IMG/VR virus record: IMGVR_UViG_3300044641_000093
Location: 1 to 26,576 of that record
Length of the DNA: 26,576 nucleotides
Direction: 5' to 3' (one strand)
DNA from: a virus
Part shown: positions 6,201 through 26,576 of the stretch, one piece after another
Numbering within the stretch: position 1 is the first letter of the stretch
Layout of the letters: every line of letters begins with the position of its first letter
Position numbers and translations under genes: made by a program
Notes under the pieces: model-generated
Told to the model about the DNA's origin: nothing
What the model saw: the letters and a program-made list of their open reading frames with translations, nothing else
Databases searched by the model: none

Positions 6201-6467
6201 ATGGCCACTTTTAGCAAAAAGATGATGGGCAAAGAAGTTGGCGATGCCAGCGTTTATGCGCCGCCCCACAACATGAGTGGTGAAGCGGGTGTGGACATCA
6301 AGAACAGTGGCTACCAAGGTGGTAATCGTTTGACTGCCAATGATGTAAACATGTCTGTTGGTAACATCAGTCGTGACCCATACAAAGAGCCAAAAACTTC
6401 TGGCATTAAAACCCGTGGTAATGGTTGCGCCACTAAAGGCGTAATAGCCCGGGGGCCAATGGCTTGA
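6201..6467 (+). CDS. Small protein with NGCATKG motif, 88 aa
   Basis: It starts at ATG 6201, right after the upstream stop, with AAAAAGGAG (6184-6194 region) as ribosome-binding site. The protein reads MATFSKKMMGKEVGDASVYA, then a polar middle with GYQGGNRLTANDVNMSVGNI, and ends KTRGNGCATKGVIARGPMA. The end is a diverged version of the DGxAxKGKTKG module of the genes at 2984-4111 (Asn-Gly-Cys-Ala-Thr-Lys-Gly). Unlike those it lacks a terminal Cys. Function is unknown, but the motif links it to the small-protein cluster. Confidence 0.7.
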   Translation: MATFSKKMMGKEVGDASVYAPPHNMSGEAGVDIKNSGYQGGNRLTANDVNMSVGNISRDPYKEPKTSGIKTRGNGCATKGVIARGPMA

Positions 6468-6468
6468 T

Positions 6469-7167
6469 ATGAATTACACCCAACTGTTTGATACCATTCA
6501 GTCGTATACGGAAAATAACTTTCCGGATTTCACTCTTGCCAGTGGCGGGATAGAGACGACTACCGAACAGATCAATCGGTTTATTGAGCAAGCGGAATTA
6601 CGCATCTATAACACGGTGCAGTTTCCGTTTTTGCGCAAAAACATGACGGGTAATATTCAGTCAGGTAACAAATATCTTCAGGCTCCAAACGATTATCTTG
6701 CTACATATTCTTTGGCAGTGATAGATGCGTCTGGTAACTACGAGTACTTGTTAAACAAAGACGTAAATTACATTCGTCAGGCGTACCCTAATCCTACGAC
6801 AGATGTTGGCATCCCAAAGTACTACGCACTATTTGGCCCAGCCATTGTTAGTAATGTAATTACAACTGAACTAACGTTTATTCTTGGCCCAACTCCTGAT
6901 GCAACGTATACGGCAGAGCTTCATTTCTATTACTACCCAGAGTCGATCACGACTGCGGGTACATCATGGCTTGGTGATAACTTTGACACAGTGCTCTTGT
7001 ATGGCTCACTGGTTGAGGCTTATACCTACATGAAGGGCGAGGCAGATATGCTTGCCTTGTACGACGGTAAATACAAAGAAGCCCTTGCACAAGCTAAACG
7101 TTTGGGTGATGGTATGGAGCGTCAGGATGCTTATCGTTCTGGTCAATATAGACAGGCGGTGACTTGA
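6469..7167 (+). CDS. Second head-tail adaptor (phage adaptor family), 232 aa
   Basis: The start MNYTQLFDTIQSYTENNFPD is typical of phage adaptor proteins, followed by TEQINRFIEQAELRIYNTVQ and FPFLRKNMTGNI. The centre has a beta segment with PNDYLATYSLAVI and the motif FYYYPESI. The end, NFDTVLLYGSLVEAYTYMKG, EADMLALYDGKYKEALAQAK and RLGDGMERQDAYRSGQYR, is a conserved two-helix pack. Proteins of this sort form the ring below the first adaptor in short-tailed phages or the T7 gp12-side interface. Membership of the broad family is well supported; the exact ring position is inferred. The TGATG overlap couples it to the next gene. Confidence 0.78.
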   Translation: MNYTQLFDTIQSYTENNFPDFTLASGGIETTTEQINRFIEQAELRIYNTVQFPFLRKNMTGNIQSGNKYLQAPNDYLATYSLAVIDASGNYEYLLNKDVNYIRQAYPNPTTDVGIPKYYALFGPAIVSNVITTELTFILGPTPDATYTAELHFYYYPESITTAGTSWLGDNFDTVLLYGSLVEAYTYMKGEADMLALYDGKYKEALAQAKRLGDGMERQDAYRSGQYRQAVT

Positions 7168-14122: not shown

Positions 14123-16231
14123 ATGCCACTACAAAAATTCTTGTTTAAGCCGGGGGTCAACCGGGAAAACACACGCTATACCACCGAGGGCGGTTGGTAT
14201 GAGGGCGATAAGATTCGTTTTCGCCAAGGCAACCCCGAGAAAATTGGTGGTTGGACTCCGTTTGCTGGTAGTACGTTTCAGGGTGTCTGCCGTTCTTTGT
14301 GGAACTGGATTACCCTTACGGGAGAAAATTTAGTTGGTGTTGGCACTAATCTGTATTTCTACATCCTTAAAGGTGGTGACTACTACGATGTCACCCCAAT
14401 CCGTAAAACAATCACCCTTACAAATCCCTTTACGGCGACCAACGGGTCTAGTGTAATTACCGTCGCAGAAACTAATCACGGCTGTGTAGATAACGATACA
14501 GTGATTTATAGCGGCGGAGGTATCGTAGGACTTGGTGGCAACATTACTGCCGGTGTTTTAACTGGTACTTTTATTATTACGTTTGTTGATGACAATACCT
14601 ACACCATTACAGTATCAGCCACTGCCAACGCCACGGACGTTGCGGGTTCCCCCGGTGGTGGTACGGTCGTAACGCAATACGAAACTAATACTGGCCCCGC
14701 ATATCAAGTGCCTTTAGTTGGTTGGGGTGCTGGCCCTTGGGGTGCGGGTACGTGGGGTAATGGTCAAACTACGTCTACATCTCTTCAGTTGTGGAACCAA
14801 CAAAACTTTGGTGAAGATTTAATCTATGGCCCACGGGGTCAAGGCGTTTACTATTGGAGCGCCAACGTAGGTTATGCGCCAATTCAAATTACTATTTCAA
14901 TTGCAGCCCCCGGCGTTATTACTTTACCCGTAGGGTTTTCATTTCCTGATGGCACAACAATTTCGTTTACATCTACAGGTGCATTACCTACGGGCTTAAC
15001 AGTAGGGCAAGTGTATTTTGTGGTGAACTCTACCGGCGGTACATTTAATGTATCCCTCACGATTGCGGGTTCACCAATTACAACGTCTGGTGGCCAGTCT
15101 GGTACCCAACGCATATCTCAGCGGGGTATTGATTTAGCCGATGCTGGCGATGATGATGCGCCGTTATTTCAGAACTACATCTTAGTATCTGATACCAGCC
15201 GGTTTGTATTGGTGTTCGGTACAAATGACTACGGGCAAACATTTTTGAACCCTATGTTGATCCGCTGGTCAGACCAAGAAGACCCATACACATGGACGCC
15301 ACAGGCTACAAACCAAGCAGGTAGTTTGCAACTATCTCACGGCTCTGAAATCATTACAGCCGTGCAGTCTCGTCAAGAGATTGTGGTGTTTACGGATTCT
15401 TCACTATATTCATTGCAATACGTAGGCCCACCTTTTGTGTGGACAGCACAACTTATTGCAGACAACGTGTCTATCATTGGCCCTAATGCCGCTGTGATTG
15501 CGTCAGGCGCGGTGTACTGGATGGGCGTAGACAAGTTCTATAAATACGATGGTCGTGTACAAACACTGAATTGCGATTTACGCCGTTATATTTTTAATGA
15601 CTTTAATAAATTACAACCCCAACAAGTTTATGCGGGAACAAACGAAGGCTTTAACGAAATCTGGTGGTTCTATTGCTCTGCCGATTCAACCGTAAGTGAT
15701 AGATATGTGATCTATAACTACATTGAGAATGTGTGGAGTTACGGCAATATGGGTCGTACAGCTTGGTTAGATTCCGGCCTATTACCCCTGCCTGTTGCCG
15801 CCACATACGACAGTGAACTTGTACAGCATGAAGACGGTGTAGATGCTTATGTGTTGGGTAATTTAACCGCATTGTCAGCTTACATTTCTTCTTCTGAATT
15901 TGACATTGGTGATGGCCACAATTTTGGCTATGTGTGGCGCATATTGCCTGATTTAACATTTGAAAACTCTACATCTACACCTAGTGGCTCTGCCGCCGCA
16001 GTTGCTATGACTTTGTACCCGCTACAAAACTCTGGCTCTGGCACAGGAAATGTGGGCAGTGCGAGTGTCACTAAGGGCGCAACATACAATATCACTGAAG
16101 AATACACGGGGCAGATTTACACTCGTGTTCGAGGTCGTCAGATGATATTTAAAATTGCCTCAGACCAGATTGGTACAACTTGGCAGTTGGGTGCGCCTAG
16201 ACTTGATATTAGAGCAGACGGTAGGAGATAA
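14123..16231 (+). CDS. Tail tube / stabilisation protein (P22 gp10 or T7 gp12-like), 702 aa
   Basis: The start MPLQKFLFKPGVNRENTRYT, TEGGWYEGDKIRFRQGNPEK is a well-conserved beginning of large podoviral tail proteins that follow adaptors. Blade-like repeats include QNYILVSDTSRFVLVFG, ITAVQSRQEIVVFTDSSLYS and GAVYWMGVDKFYKYDG, suggesting a beta-propeller, as in gp10/gp12-type nozzle proteins. Two beta inserts interrupt it: residues 100-180 with VITVAETNHGCVDNDTVIYS (FCCH-like) and residues 258-330 with PDGTTISFTSTGALPTGL. The first insert resembles the domain of the genes at 1573 and 2072. It probably forms the tail nozzle that holds DNA and carries the fibres. The assignment is by motif and size, without a search. 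Confidence 0.75.
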   Translation: MPLQKFLFKPGVNRENTRYTTEGGWYEGDKIRFRQGNPEKIGGWTPFAGSTFQGVCRSLWNWITLTGENLVGVGTNLYFYILKGGDYYDVTPIRKTITLTNPFTATNGSSVITVAETNHGCVDNDTVIYSGGGIVGLGGNITAGVLTGTFIITFVDDNTYTITVSATANATDVAGSPGGGTVVTQYETNTGPAYQVPLVGWGAGPWGAGTWGNGQTTSTSLQLWNQQNFGEDLIYGPRGQGVYYWSANVGYAPIQITISIAAPGVITLPVGFSFPDGTTISFTSTGALPTGLTVGQVYFVVNSTGGTFNVSLTIAGSPITTSGGQSGTQRISQRGIDLADAGDDDAPLFQNYILVSDTSRFVLVFGTNDYGQTFLNPMLIRWSDQEDPYTWTPQATNQAGSLQLSHGSEIITAVQSRQEIVVFTDSSLYSLQYVGPPFVWTAQLIADNVSIIGPNAAVIASGAVYWMGVDKFYKYDGRVQTLNCDLRRYIFNDFNKLQPQQVYAGTNEGFNEIWWFYCSADSTVSDRYVIYNYIENVWSYGNMGRTAWLDSGLLPLPVAATYDSELVQHEDGVDAYVLGNLTALSAYISSSEFDIGDGHNFGYVWRILPDLTFENSTSTPSGSAAAVAMTLYPLQNSGSGTGNVGSASVTKGATYNITEEYTGQIYTRVRGRQMIFKIASDQIGTTWQLGAPRLDIRADGRR

Positions 16232-23042: not shown

Positions 23043-26000
23043 ATGCTCATCAACCTGCCCAAACTTGGCCCCGTTAATTTTCGGGATGATTTGACGCAAG
23101 AGCAACTTCAAGCGCAACTCTCTGCGCTTGAAAAGAAGTACGATTTTAGAATGCCAAAGCCTGATGTAGGGATTGGCACCCTCCTCAAGCGCGGCTTCAT
23201 GCGTGGTTTGGGGGAAACAGGTATCGCTTTAGGGGACACGCTCCCCGCTATGAGCGCATCTGCGCTTGGCTTTGATGAGTACGCCCAACGTCAACTGGGA
23301 GAGGCGCAAGAATCCCGTGCCGCATTAGAAGCCAAGTACCCTACGCAGTTCAGGTCATACACTGAAATTGGTAGCCCATACGAAGCCTTGCAGTATGGCG
23401 CAGAAACTCTGGGTGAACTTGGCCCAACAGCTTTGACTGCGTTAGTTCCCGGTATAGGCGCTGGGGCAGTCGGTAGTAGGATTGCCGCTCGTGGTGCTAT
23501 GGGTGCCGCTTTGGAAGCTGGCCCGCTATCCCGTGTAGGACTTGCCGCCGCAGAGACTGCCGCTAAAAAAGCGGGTGAAGTCGCAGGTAAACGTGCGATG
23601 TATGGTGGTGTGTACCTTGGTTCGTTTGCACAGAACGCACCTGAAGTGTTCGAAAGCATCTACCAAGAAACTGACAAGATGGAGCCGGGTATTGCTGCTT
23701 TGTTTGGTGGTCTATCTTCCGTCTTAGACGCTATTGTCCCCGGCAAATTGTTGGGTGAACTTGGTGGTTACGGCAAGATGAAGGTCATTGAAAAGATGGC
23801 CAAAGATTCTGGTGCCGCACCAAAAGTGTGGAAGTATATTGGCAAAGAAGCCGCTAAAACCGCAGGTACTGAAGGTTTGACTGAGGCAGCGCAAGAGTCT
23901 ATCAATGCCGCCGCAGAACAAGTTGCAGGTAGTACTAAGGACATGTTTGGCCCTGAGAACATTCAACGCTTCAAAGAATCATTTGTTAAAGGTGCAATCG
24001 GTGGCGGTGCGTTTGGTACTATCGGTGGCGCAAGCCAAGGCTTGACTGCCCGCAAAGAATTTAAAGATACCAAAGAAGCTGAAGAAGCACTCAAAGCGCA
24101 AATGGATGCCGAGGCTAAAGCCGGTACGCTCACTCCTGAACGCCGTGCTGAATACGACATCGCACTTGAGAAAGCACGTAAACAACGTGAAGCAGACTTA
24201 ACCGCTGCATTCAAAAACGTACCAGAAGATGTTGGCGCGGTATCACTTGCCGCACTGCAACAACGTGCAGAGGCAATCAAAGAACAAAATCCCGGTGCGT
24301 ATGATCGTATCTATGGTGAGTTAGATGCCGCTATTGCCGCTCGTAAAGCAGAAGATGCAGAAGCGGAAGCGGAAGCAACCGCTAAAGCTAATCAAGAACT
24401 TGCACAAGCCGAGGCTGAATACGCTGAAGGTCTGCGTAATAAGCAGGCGGGATCAGCATTTGCCAAAGTGCCACCTACCCCCGGTACTGGCGGTATGTTT
24501 AAACCCGCATTGGAACAGCAACGTGCTGATCAACAGCAAGCTACACGTGACTTTGCGTTTGGCCCTGTAACTACAAACACCCCCGGTGATCCCGTTACAG
24601 TTGACACCCTGAAAAATCTTAAAGTGTCTGACCGTTCTAAAGTTGGCTTGCAGTTGTTAGGCACTGATCTTGATACGGTCGATGGTCGCCGCACGTTCAT
24701 TCAGACGCTTGAGAACCCTGAGTTCATGGGCAATATCGACCCTGTTGCATACGATGATATTGTCAGCACCTTTGATCCTGAAGAAGTCAAAGCCGCTCGT
24801 GCTGAGATGCAGTCCGTAGATATCTCTCCCACAAAGCAGAAACAGCAAGAACAAACCCGCCAATTTGCATTTGGAGTACCTGATGTTACAAGACCTGACA
24901 CCACCACAAGTGGAGGAAGCCCTAGCGTGGATAGCCAATCCACAAGTGCTGAAAATACCGCAACCGATGAAGCAACTGTCGGAGGTGGAGATGTTTCTAC
25001 TGAGCAGAATGCTGGAGACGCTACTGGACGAAAAGGACAACAGTCCACTACATTAACTGAAGGAACCACAACTGATGGCACTACGACCACTCAAACCCAG
25101 CAAGCAGAAGCGCAAGGACAAACGGCAACAACTGCCACACGAGGCGTCCTAGACCGCCCTGATTTATCCGCAGAACTGCCCGCTATCCAACAGAAACTGG
25201 GTGGGCTAAAGGCCAAACTGGATCAGATTGCTAAAGATGCCCGTGCCTATTTTGGCAAGGTAGTCCCTGAACTTGCGCTTGATTCAATCGCTAACGATTT
25301 GGTATATCAGCCTAGTGCTTACCGCAACTCAAAGATGAAAGCCTTTAAGAGTAGTCCATTTGGCCCAGAGCCTATGTTTGGCACCAAAGAAGAAGCTAAA
25401 TTCTTTCAAGGTCAAGGCGGTACCCACGCCAAAAATGCCGAAGCATGGGCACGTGCCAACTTGTCTCCTGAAGCTGTAGCATTCATGGATCAAAAGATTG
25501 CACAGTACAAAAAAGAAAAGCAAAGGTCTGACTCTATTCGCCGCCGTCAGGAAGCTCAAACCGATTTGCGTAAAGCTACTAAAACGCAGGTTGCAGAGGA
25601 AGCCGCTGTTGCCGAAGCAGAAGGCGAATACGCTCCCACAGAAGAAGAAATTGCAGACGCCAAGGGTACAAAGACTGAGGCTGGTAAACGTAAAGCTCAA
25701 ATGCAACGTCTTGCCAAGCAGTTGTCAAACGAAGACCCTTACAGTGATTTAGATGATATTGCTGACACTGATATTAGCGGGTTCAATGCTGATGCAGACC
25801 TTGCCGCATTACATACACAGGCTCACCCGGTGGTGCTCCAACAACTTGCCAACAATAACTTGGTAGGTGCTTTGCAAGCATTGGCGGACAGTGGCTCATC
25901 TAAGACAGCAGAACTCTTTGCACAAAACTTGTCTACGCTGGTTGGTAATGTAAACCTAGTATATGGCGCTAAGAAGTCCATGTACGATCCAAAGACCAAC

Positions 26001-26576
26001 ACAGTCTATCTGCGTGACGGTGCTACTGAGTACGAGATTCTGCATGAGTCTTCACATGCAACCATGTCCCACACTTTGGACAACCCGTCACATCCCGTTA
26101 CCCGTCAGGTAACCAACCTCTTCAATCAAATGAAGAAAGGCACTGAAGGAACTTATGGTGCGCAAGATATACAAGAGTTCGCTGCGGAAGCGTGGAGTAA
26201 TGATGGGTTCCGCAATCACTTAAAGCAGTTCAAGCCCACTGGCGAGAAACTCACTGGTTGGGAGCGTTTGGTTAATTCTGTACGTCAGTTGCTCCGCTTG
26301 CCCCCTAAGACCGAGACTGCGTTGGATGCGATTGATCGCATGCTAAATGACATCATCAGCCCACCCCCTGCCGAGCGCATGGGTGAAACTATGTATGCGC
26401 AGTCCCTACACAACCCTAATGTTGTGCAAGAGATGTTTACAAAAATGGGCGACACTATTCGCAAGCAACCTCTTATGAACAAAGAAGGTGCTGTTGGGTT
26501 TTGGAAGGGTGCGGAGAAGATTGGCACGGTTGGCCGTCAGTTGATGTACAAGGCGTTGAACTTGTCTGCCTTGGGT
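23043..26576 (+). CDS. Giant polyvalent-type ejection protein with HExxH zincin motif, 3' truncated (1178+ aa)
   Basis: The frame starts at ATG 23043 and stays open to the window edge. Residues 40-160 and 215-335 alternate helical parts with Gly/Ala-rich membrane-active-looking segments (ALTALVPGIGAGAVGSRIAA, GAIGGGAFGTIGGASQG). Residues 345-470 are charged coiled coil. Residues 611-700 are a Ser/Thr/Gly/Gln linker. From about 960, LVYGAKKSMYDPKTNTVYLR and EILHESSHATMSHTLDNPSH carry H1001-E-S-S-H1005, a zinc-metallopeptidase HExxH. QEFAAEAWSND (E1045, E1049) is a likely third-ligand segment. This resembles polyvalent phage proteins that carry peptidase and other domains and enter the cell with the genome. 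The linker contains a nested ORF. The zincin call is by motif only. Confidence 0.8.
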   Translation, partial: MLINLPKLGPVNFRDDLTQEQLQAQLSALEKKYDFRMPKPDVGIGTLLKRGFMRGLGETGIALGDTLPAMSASALGFDEYAQRQLGEAQESRAALEAKYPTQFRSYTEIGSPYEALQYGAETLGELGPTALTALVPGIGAGAVGSRIAARGAMGAALEAGPLSRVGLAAAETAAKKAGEVAGKRAMYGGVYLGSFAQNAPEVFESIYQETDKMEPGIAALFGGLSSVLDAIVPGKLLGELGGYGKMKVIEKMAKDSGAAPKVWKYIGKEAAKTAGTEGLTEAAQESINAAAEQVAGSTKDMFGPENIQRFKESFVKGAIGGGAFGTIGGASQGLTARKEFKDTKEAEEALKAQMDAEAKAGTLTPERRAEYDIALEKARKQREADLTAAFKNVPEDVGAVSLAALQQRAEAIKEQNPGAYDRIYGELDAAIAARKAEDAEAEAEATAKANQELAQAEAEYAEGLRNKQAGSAFAKVPPTPGTGGMFKPALEQQRADQQQATRDFAFGPVTTNTPGDPVTVDTLKNLKVSDRSKVGLQLLGTDLDTVDGRRTFIQTLENPEFMGNIDPVAYDDIVSTFDPEEVKAARAEMQSVDISPTKQKQQEQTRQFAFGVPDVTRPDTTTSGGSPSVDSQSTSAENTATDEATVGGGDVSTEQNAGDATGRKGQQSTTLTEGTTTDGTTTTQTQQAEAQGQTATTATRGVLDRPDLSAELPAIQQKLGGLKAKLDQIAKDARAYFGKVVPELALDSIANDLVYQPSAYRNSKMKAFKSSPFGPEPMFGTKEEAKFFQGQGGTHAKNAEAWARANLSPEAVAFMDQKIAQYKKEKQRSDSIRRRQEAQTDLRKATKTQVAEEAAVAEAEGEYAPTEEEIADAKGTKTEAGKRKAQMQRLAKQLSNEDPYSDLDDIADTDISGFNADADLAALHTQAHPVVLQQLANNNLVGALQALADSGSSKTAELFAQNLSTLVGNVNLVYGAKKSMYDPKTNTVYLRDGATEYEILHESSHATMSHTLDNPSHPVTRQVTNLFNQMKKGTEGTYGAQDIQEFAAEAWSNDGFRNHLKQFKPTGEKLTGWERLVNSVRQLLRLPPKTETALDAIDRMLNDIISPPPAERMGETMYAQSLHNPNVVQEMFTKMGDTIRKQPLMNKEGAVGFWKGAEKIGTVGRQLMYKALNLSALG
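24883..25056 (+). CDS. Candidate overprinted gene nested in the giant protein ORF, 57 aa
   Basis: A second frame, starting ATG 24883 and ending TAA 25054-25056, is preceded by TTTGGAG (24870-24876) six bases before the ATG, as good a ribosome-binding site as most genes here. The product begins MLQDLTPPQVEEALAWIANP and ends LLDEKDNSPLH. It is acidic and leucine-rich, with a single Trp and predicted helices, and looks like a folded protein rather than a frame shadow. In the host frame the same bases give a Ser/Thr/Gly/Gln linker whose eight glycine codons are seven GGA and one GGT, whereas GGT/GGC dominate elsewhere in that gene. Function is unknown. The main doubt is length: 57 codons can be open by chance. 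Confidence 0.58.
   Translation: MLQDLTPPQVEEALAWIANPQVLKIPQPMKQLSEVEMFLLSRMLETLLDEKDNSPLH

Follow-up and report, generated by a model that had tools for sequence, protein, structure and literature searches.

Results

A DarB-like giant gene with two small genes nested in its +1 frame

The window, that is, the whole stretch of 26,576 bases of a virus record that was analyzed, ends within its last open reading frame (ORF), which runs along the plus strand from position 23043 to position 26576 and reaches the 3' edge without a stop codon. Its 1178 codons represent the 5' part of a DarB-like or polyvalent giant, full-length relatives of which are ~2000 aa long. In one of these (L004) the C-terminal third matches phrog_10089, annotated as "DarB-like antirestriction" (E 3.8e-73), and it is by the similarity of this C-terminal third of the full-length relatives that the host ORF is assigned to the DarB-like family. 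In addition, the host-family giant matched DarB/PLxRFG-type giants in 58 cultured phage records (tblastn). The translation of the host ORF contains a metallopeptidase-like HESSH (HExxH) motif, and its match to Pfam Tox-MPTase4 was weak and below the cut-off (E 0.0058). The DarB-like giant of phage JC1 is a virion protein (PMC9144972), and the host giant is probably also carried in the virion, which has not been shown for this phage. An earlier reading of the sequence alone (hereafter, the sequence-only reading) had called the product a giant ejection protein, a name that is apt for a DarB-like host gene, although ejection itself is not shown here. Elsewhere in the window, positions 14123-16231 encode a stabilisation-type virion protein, for which the closest cultured match found was in Phage DSL-LC04 (37% identity).

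Nested in the +1 frame of the giant, on the same strand, lies a first gene (ORF1, 24883-25056), which extends from an ATG to a TAA and encodes a protein of 57 aa, MLQDLTPPQVEEALAWIANPQVLKIPQPMKQLSEVEMFLLSRMLETLLDEKDNSPLH, with a Shine-Dalgarno GGAG at 24873-24876, exactly six bases before the ATG. The sequence-only reading had located this same ORF and ribosome site, and had described an acidic, helical product, in agreement with the net charge of -5 and with an AlphaFold2 model built on a 60-sequence alignment (mean pLDDT 87.8, pTM 0.70), which predicts a two-helix protein with helices at residues 7-18, 27-30 and 34-53. Over the nested stretch the host frame reads as a loose Ser/Thr/Gly/Gln linker, whose glycine codons (7 GGA and 1 GGT) depart from those of the rest of the gene (50 GGT, 35 GGC, 8 GGG and 7 GGA; n = 100), so that a count made by eye in the earlier reading was reproduced upon recounting. 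No stable RNA structure was found over the Shine-Dalgarno and start region of ORF1.

Just downstream of ORF1, and absent from the finding of the sequence-only reading, a second nested gene (ORF2, 25075-25152) occupies the same +1 frame and the same strand, preceded by a Shine-Dalgarno-like GAAGGAA at 25059-25065. Its product is a basic peptide (net +6) of 25 aa, MALRPLKPSKQKRKDKRQQLPHEAS. Neither ORF1 nor ORF2 of the window encodes a cysteine, a lipobox, a hydrophobic N-terminus or a long hydrophobic segment.

Conservation of ORF1 across the giant family

A search with the host protein recovered 13 full-length relatives, with ORF1 intact in all 13, and profile searches with the ORF1 protein yielded 28 loci and then 144 and 136 relatives, 80 being kept each time. 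Among 105 distinct relatives from IMG/VR, ORF1 was open in every one, always at one and the same offset within the host gene and 56-58 aa long. Stops in the nested frame of relatives, or loss of the ATG or the GGAG, had been named in the sequence-only reading as outcomes that would refute a nested gene; no such stops were found, and the start codon (100 ATG, 4 GTG) was kept together with the Shine-Dalgarno core in 104 of the 105. The exception, L094 (of which L247 is the same contig), has an open and conserved ORF1 frame without a recognisable start or Shine-Dalgarno. The exact GGAG preceded ORF1 in 97/105 relatives versus 0.11 expected from a null of synonymous resampling, and the host glycine codons just upstream of the start are GGA in 99/103 cases, compared to 9% elsewhere. 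The test was made with the exact GGAG because looser core motifs are met by the Lys/Gln-Gly codons of the host frame alone (null 0.64).

When giants were sampled by their C-terminal domain, a sample in which some loci came from contigs already sampled, ORF1 was present in 53 of 60 complete giants whose 5' end lay in the locus, and three more had, at the same place, what is probably a diverged copy preceded by a Shine-Dalgarno. In these (L301, L303 and L306, at host residue ~612) the +1 ORF is of 73 aa, with GGAGG before its ATG and an ORF1-like ending (...NQVH), and probably represents a strongly diverged ORF1. A search started from a single diverged ORF1 member recovered four relatives, nested too. 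Identity between giants was 46-68% for ORF1, compared to 23-54% for the N-terminal parts and 25-55% for the C-terminal parts of the giant itself (for both parts mostly 23-41%), so that, judged by these identities, ORF1 is clearly more conserved than the giant among the more distant members.

The sequence-only reading had suggested a search for stand-alone small genes related to the 57-aa product. None was found: ORF1 was nested in a giant at every locus examined, five different queries detected no stand-alone homologue in INPHARED (one match at E 3 was at chance level), and no copy was found in contigs of bacterial genomes. No clear match to PHROGs or NCBIfam was obtained with 60 diverse members (best, phrog_5825, E 0.0025, 5/60), none to Pfam with 17 members, and none by Foldseek to solved structures (PDB) or BFVD at E<=0.001. 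Neither ORF1 nor ORF2 had a match in cultured phages. Profile HMMs of ORF1, ORF2 and a further nested ORF described below (ORF1b) found nothing in the cultured DarB-like giants checked, which are of 3000-5000 aa, compared to ~2000-2500 aa for the giants studied here. A scan for rotated codon periodicity between the giants of SopranoGao and ZX1 gave no clear rotated block, this pair being too diverged.

Codon periodicity is rotated over ORF1 and ORF2

Resampling that preserved codon usage gave a probability of 0.25 for an open +1 ORF of this length in the window and a median of 0.12 over the relatives, so that openness carries little weight in a single sequence, which no longer holds when 105 are taken together. 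Within the ORF1 stretch, 41 independent close pairs differed at host codon positions 1/2/3 in the numbers 456/191/86, whereas the giant outside the overlap showed 1286/784/3602 in the same pairs, and 486 differences changed the host protein while being silent in ORF1, compared to 72 of the reverse kind. Control codons of the giant followed the normal host pattern. The host wobble sites over 24883-25056 are thus the most conserved sites and not the least, the opposite of the lack of raised synonymous-site conservation that the earlier reading had also listed as refuting. The DNA over 24843-24902 is unusually conserved as well. A chance ORF is ruled out by the rotated periodicity and the conservation across relatives, and the proposal of an overprinted gene inside the giant is hence supported.

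A sliding scan along the full length of the giant, made in 12 relatives, detected strong rotation only over ~24873-25172, i.e. ORF1 plus ORF2, the rotated zone running past the stop of ORF1 because of ORF2. For the latter the rotation was even stronger than for ORF1 (123/27/9 at host positions 1/2/3 in 35 pairs), with 125 host-changing, ORF2-silent differences versus 8 of the reverse kind. These substitution patterns show both ORF1 and ORF2 to be under strong purifying selection, each with its own Shine-Dalgarno and start. A comparison of codon usage over the overlap, made to see which of the two frames is the older, scored -0.122 for the nested frame and -0.123 for the host frame, compared to +0.098 for an upstream control, both frames being atypical. 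Two other candidates were set aside, one a long +1 ORF of the giant at 24325-24570, where the sequence evolves fast and shows no clear rotation to the +1 frame, and the other a lone stretch of low p3 (group C, L093, ~1172) to which no ORF corresponds.

ORF2 and other occupants of the linker

A scan for ORF2 recovered 233 IMG/VR relatives, and the 80 that were kept were all nested in giant ORFs; none was seen outside a giant. Three start codons are used (GTG/TTG/ATG, 33/26/16), and 73 of the 75 copies examined have a Shine-Dalgarno core. The core of the peptide, ALxPLKPSKQ, hardly varies between copies, whereas the peptides encoded there in the host frame are very different from one another. 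ORF2 was found in 87 of 120 ORF1 loci and was missing from 33; conversely, ORF1 was undetected in some ORF2 loci, and therefore the two are not an obligate pair. The spacing between them ranges from ~18 to more than 1100 nt because the giant takes insertions there, and these (tens to ~1100 nt) fall between ORF1 and ORF2 and inside neither. In some giants (L031, at 6400-6477, 6622-6768 and 6919-6984, and also L102 and L103) two or three ORF2-like +1 segments are present, as if the linker that bears ORF2 had been duplicated.

The N-terminal modules of the giants differ widely between clades while ORF1 and ORF2 persist, which suggests module exchange upstream of the nested cassette. The 5' ends of the giants are very unlike in L018, L045, L088, L101, L104, L106, L229 and others.

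Two further nested ORFs were observed, each resting on three or four sequences and therefore to be taken as leads. In three GC-rich giants, a non-homologous nested +1 ORF of 60-65 aa (ORF1b; L164:5719-5913, L227:5350-5529 and L229:5671-5850) replaces ORF1 upstream of ORF2, with a core MGSQAGQPPSKxPQ...GYQPK, AGGAG before the ATG and rotated periodicity. In L036, L041, L061 and L072, a nested +1 ORF of ~49 aa (ORF3; ~6170-6330 in L036) directly follows ORF1, starts with ATG or TTG, has a leucine-rich N-terminal half and a basic C-terminal half, and shows moderate rotation.

Discussion

The comparative sequence data make it practically certain that positions 24883-25152 are coding in the nested frame and constitute a genuine overprinted cassette of two genes. 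That both are expressed as genes of their own, with independent internal initiation, is very likely, though without ribosome profiling or proteomics to support it. A programmed frameshift, by which the +1 frame would supply an alternative C-terminus to a short form of the giant instead of an independent gene, could be invoked because ORF1 and ORF2 share a single +1 frame, but before the ATG the +1 frame lacks conservation and becomes open at varying places, the rotation begins at the ATG, and a Shine-Dalgarno core and a start are conserved separately for each ORF, all of which makes it extremely improbable. An element conserved at the nucleotide level (a regulatory RNA, or a site for binding or recombination) and merely resembling coding sequence would fit the unusual DNA conservation around the start of ORF1 and the position of ORF2 within an insertion-prone linker. 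Nevertheless, we consider it next to impossible, as the nested frame shows three-base periodicity and synonymous change with matching start and stop positions, ATG, GTG and TTG are exchanged while the Shine-Dalgarno core is kept, amino acids are conserved where the DNA has diverged, and the start shows no notable RNA structure, the coding pattern being enough to account for the conservation.

Regarding what the two nested genes do, our best guess, a tentative one that falls short of an even chance, is that their products are partners of the giant in folding, packaging or co-ejection. We infer that ribosomes would start independently at the internal sites on the giant's own late mRNA, so that both the acidic two-helix protein and the basic peptide would be made together with the giant, and the two small products might then bind the giant, or its N-terminal module, during folding, head loading or ejection with the DNA. 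The reasons for this guess are that ORF1 occurs almost throughout the giant family and is confined to it, is presumably co-made with the giant, and evolves slowly, and the guess has an analogy in phage P1, where Hdf and DarA are needed for the entry of DarB into the head (PMC12810830). On the other hand, an overprinted gene is unable to move apart from the gene that contains it, which may be all that lies behind the strict linkage of ORF1 to the giant, and the lack of ORF1 and ORF2 in the cultured DarB-like giants checked implies that such giants can work without them.

It is also conceivable, if rather unlikely in our opinion, that the nested products are independent micro-proteins for host takeover or anti-defence, which the virion carries or which are produced late, and that they lie within the giant only because its disordered linker tolerates overprinting. 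Takeover genes typically encode small accessory proteins of the size of the ORF1 and ORF2 products, the host giant itself is of an anti-restriction family, and the linker shows modular turnover, with loss of ORF2 in some clades and the appearance of ORF1b and ORF3; however, ORF1 is near-universal (53-56/60) and slower than the giant, unlike typical fast-changing accessory genes, and no family match in PHROGs, Pfam or NCBIfam lends support. Nested small genes of phages are classically lysis genes, as Rz1 within Rz, and one of the clade-specific ORFs beside ORF1 is leucine-rich and basic, but a function in lysis, like that of the out-of-frame o-spanin Rz1 or of the nested lysis genes of small phages, appears very unlikely for products with neither cysteine nor lipobox nor long hydrophobic segment, and a separate block of endolysin, holin and lysis genes comes after the giant in the cultured phages SopranoGao, PEp14 and ZX1. 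With function inferred only, we prefer partnership with the giant to an independent part in anti-defence or lysis. The choice among lysis, anti-defence and assembly is not decided, as neither a relative that stands alone nor a match to a known family or fold is there to guide it.

Taken over a large group of uncultured phages, the linker of the DarB-like giant may be a standing site for overprinted micro-genes, with a near-universal and ancient ORF1, a widespread ORF2 and the clade-specific, non-homologous ORF1b and ORF3, each with its own ribosome site, in the manner of a hidden operon whose products act with the giant. We regard this broader proposal as evenly balanced between holding and failing.

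Overprinting itself is known, the closest phage example being Rz1 in Rz (lambda-type, and also annotated in Erwinia phage PEp14), likewise a small same-strand gene wholly inside a longer phage gene, in another frame and with its own start and ribosome site. Rz1, however, is a Cys-lipoprotein encoded in a lysis gene, whereas the gene around ORF1 and ORF2 encodes a DarB-like giant of virion type and is not an i-spanin gene. Among the DarB-like and polyvalent giants (phrog_10089; P1 DarB; the DarB-like proteins of Bcep22 and JC1; PLxRFG of Lastavirus), to which the host ORF belongs by similarity in the C-terminal third, none of the cultured members checked has a nested gene like ORF1 or ORF2. The likeness to P1 Hdf and DarA (PMC12810830) lies in the proposed role as partners of a DarB-like giant, and these are separate, non-nested genes, unlike ORF1 and ORF2. 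The overprinted genes of small viruses and of phiX174-type phages, reviewed in PMC8227390, share the same arrangement and evolutionary signature, but ORF1 and ORF2 are found in tailed phages of ~60 kb, two in tandem, with other non-homologous occupants elsewhere. The two nested families described here are unknown, and the literature searched did not mention genes nested within giants of the DarB-like or polyvalent kind, although its coverage was incomplete and this is no proof of novelty.

Genes nested in an alternative frame are well known in tiny viruses, but for tailed phages of ~60 kb cases backed by strong comparative evidence are rare, and both ORF1 and ORF2 would escape gene callers that do not allow long overlaps. 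With this pair, internal initiation on late phage mRNA could be put to a concrete test, and the question of how DarB-like giants fold or are loaded has a candidate answer. The finding also suggests that other giant phage genes are worth scanning for rotated codon periodicity.
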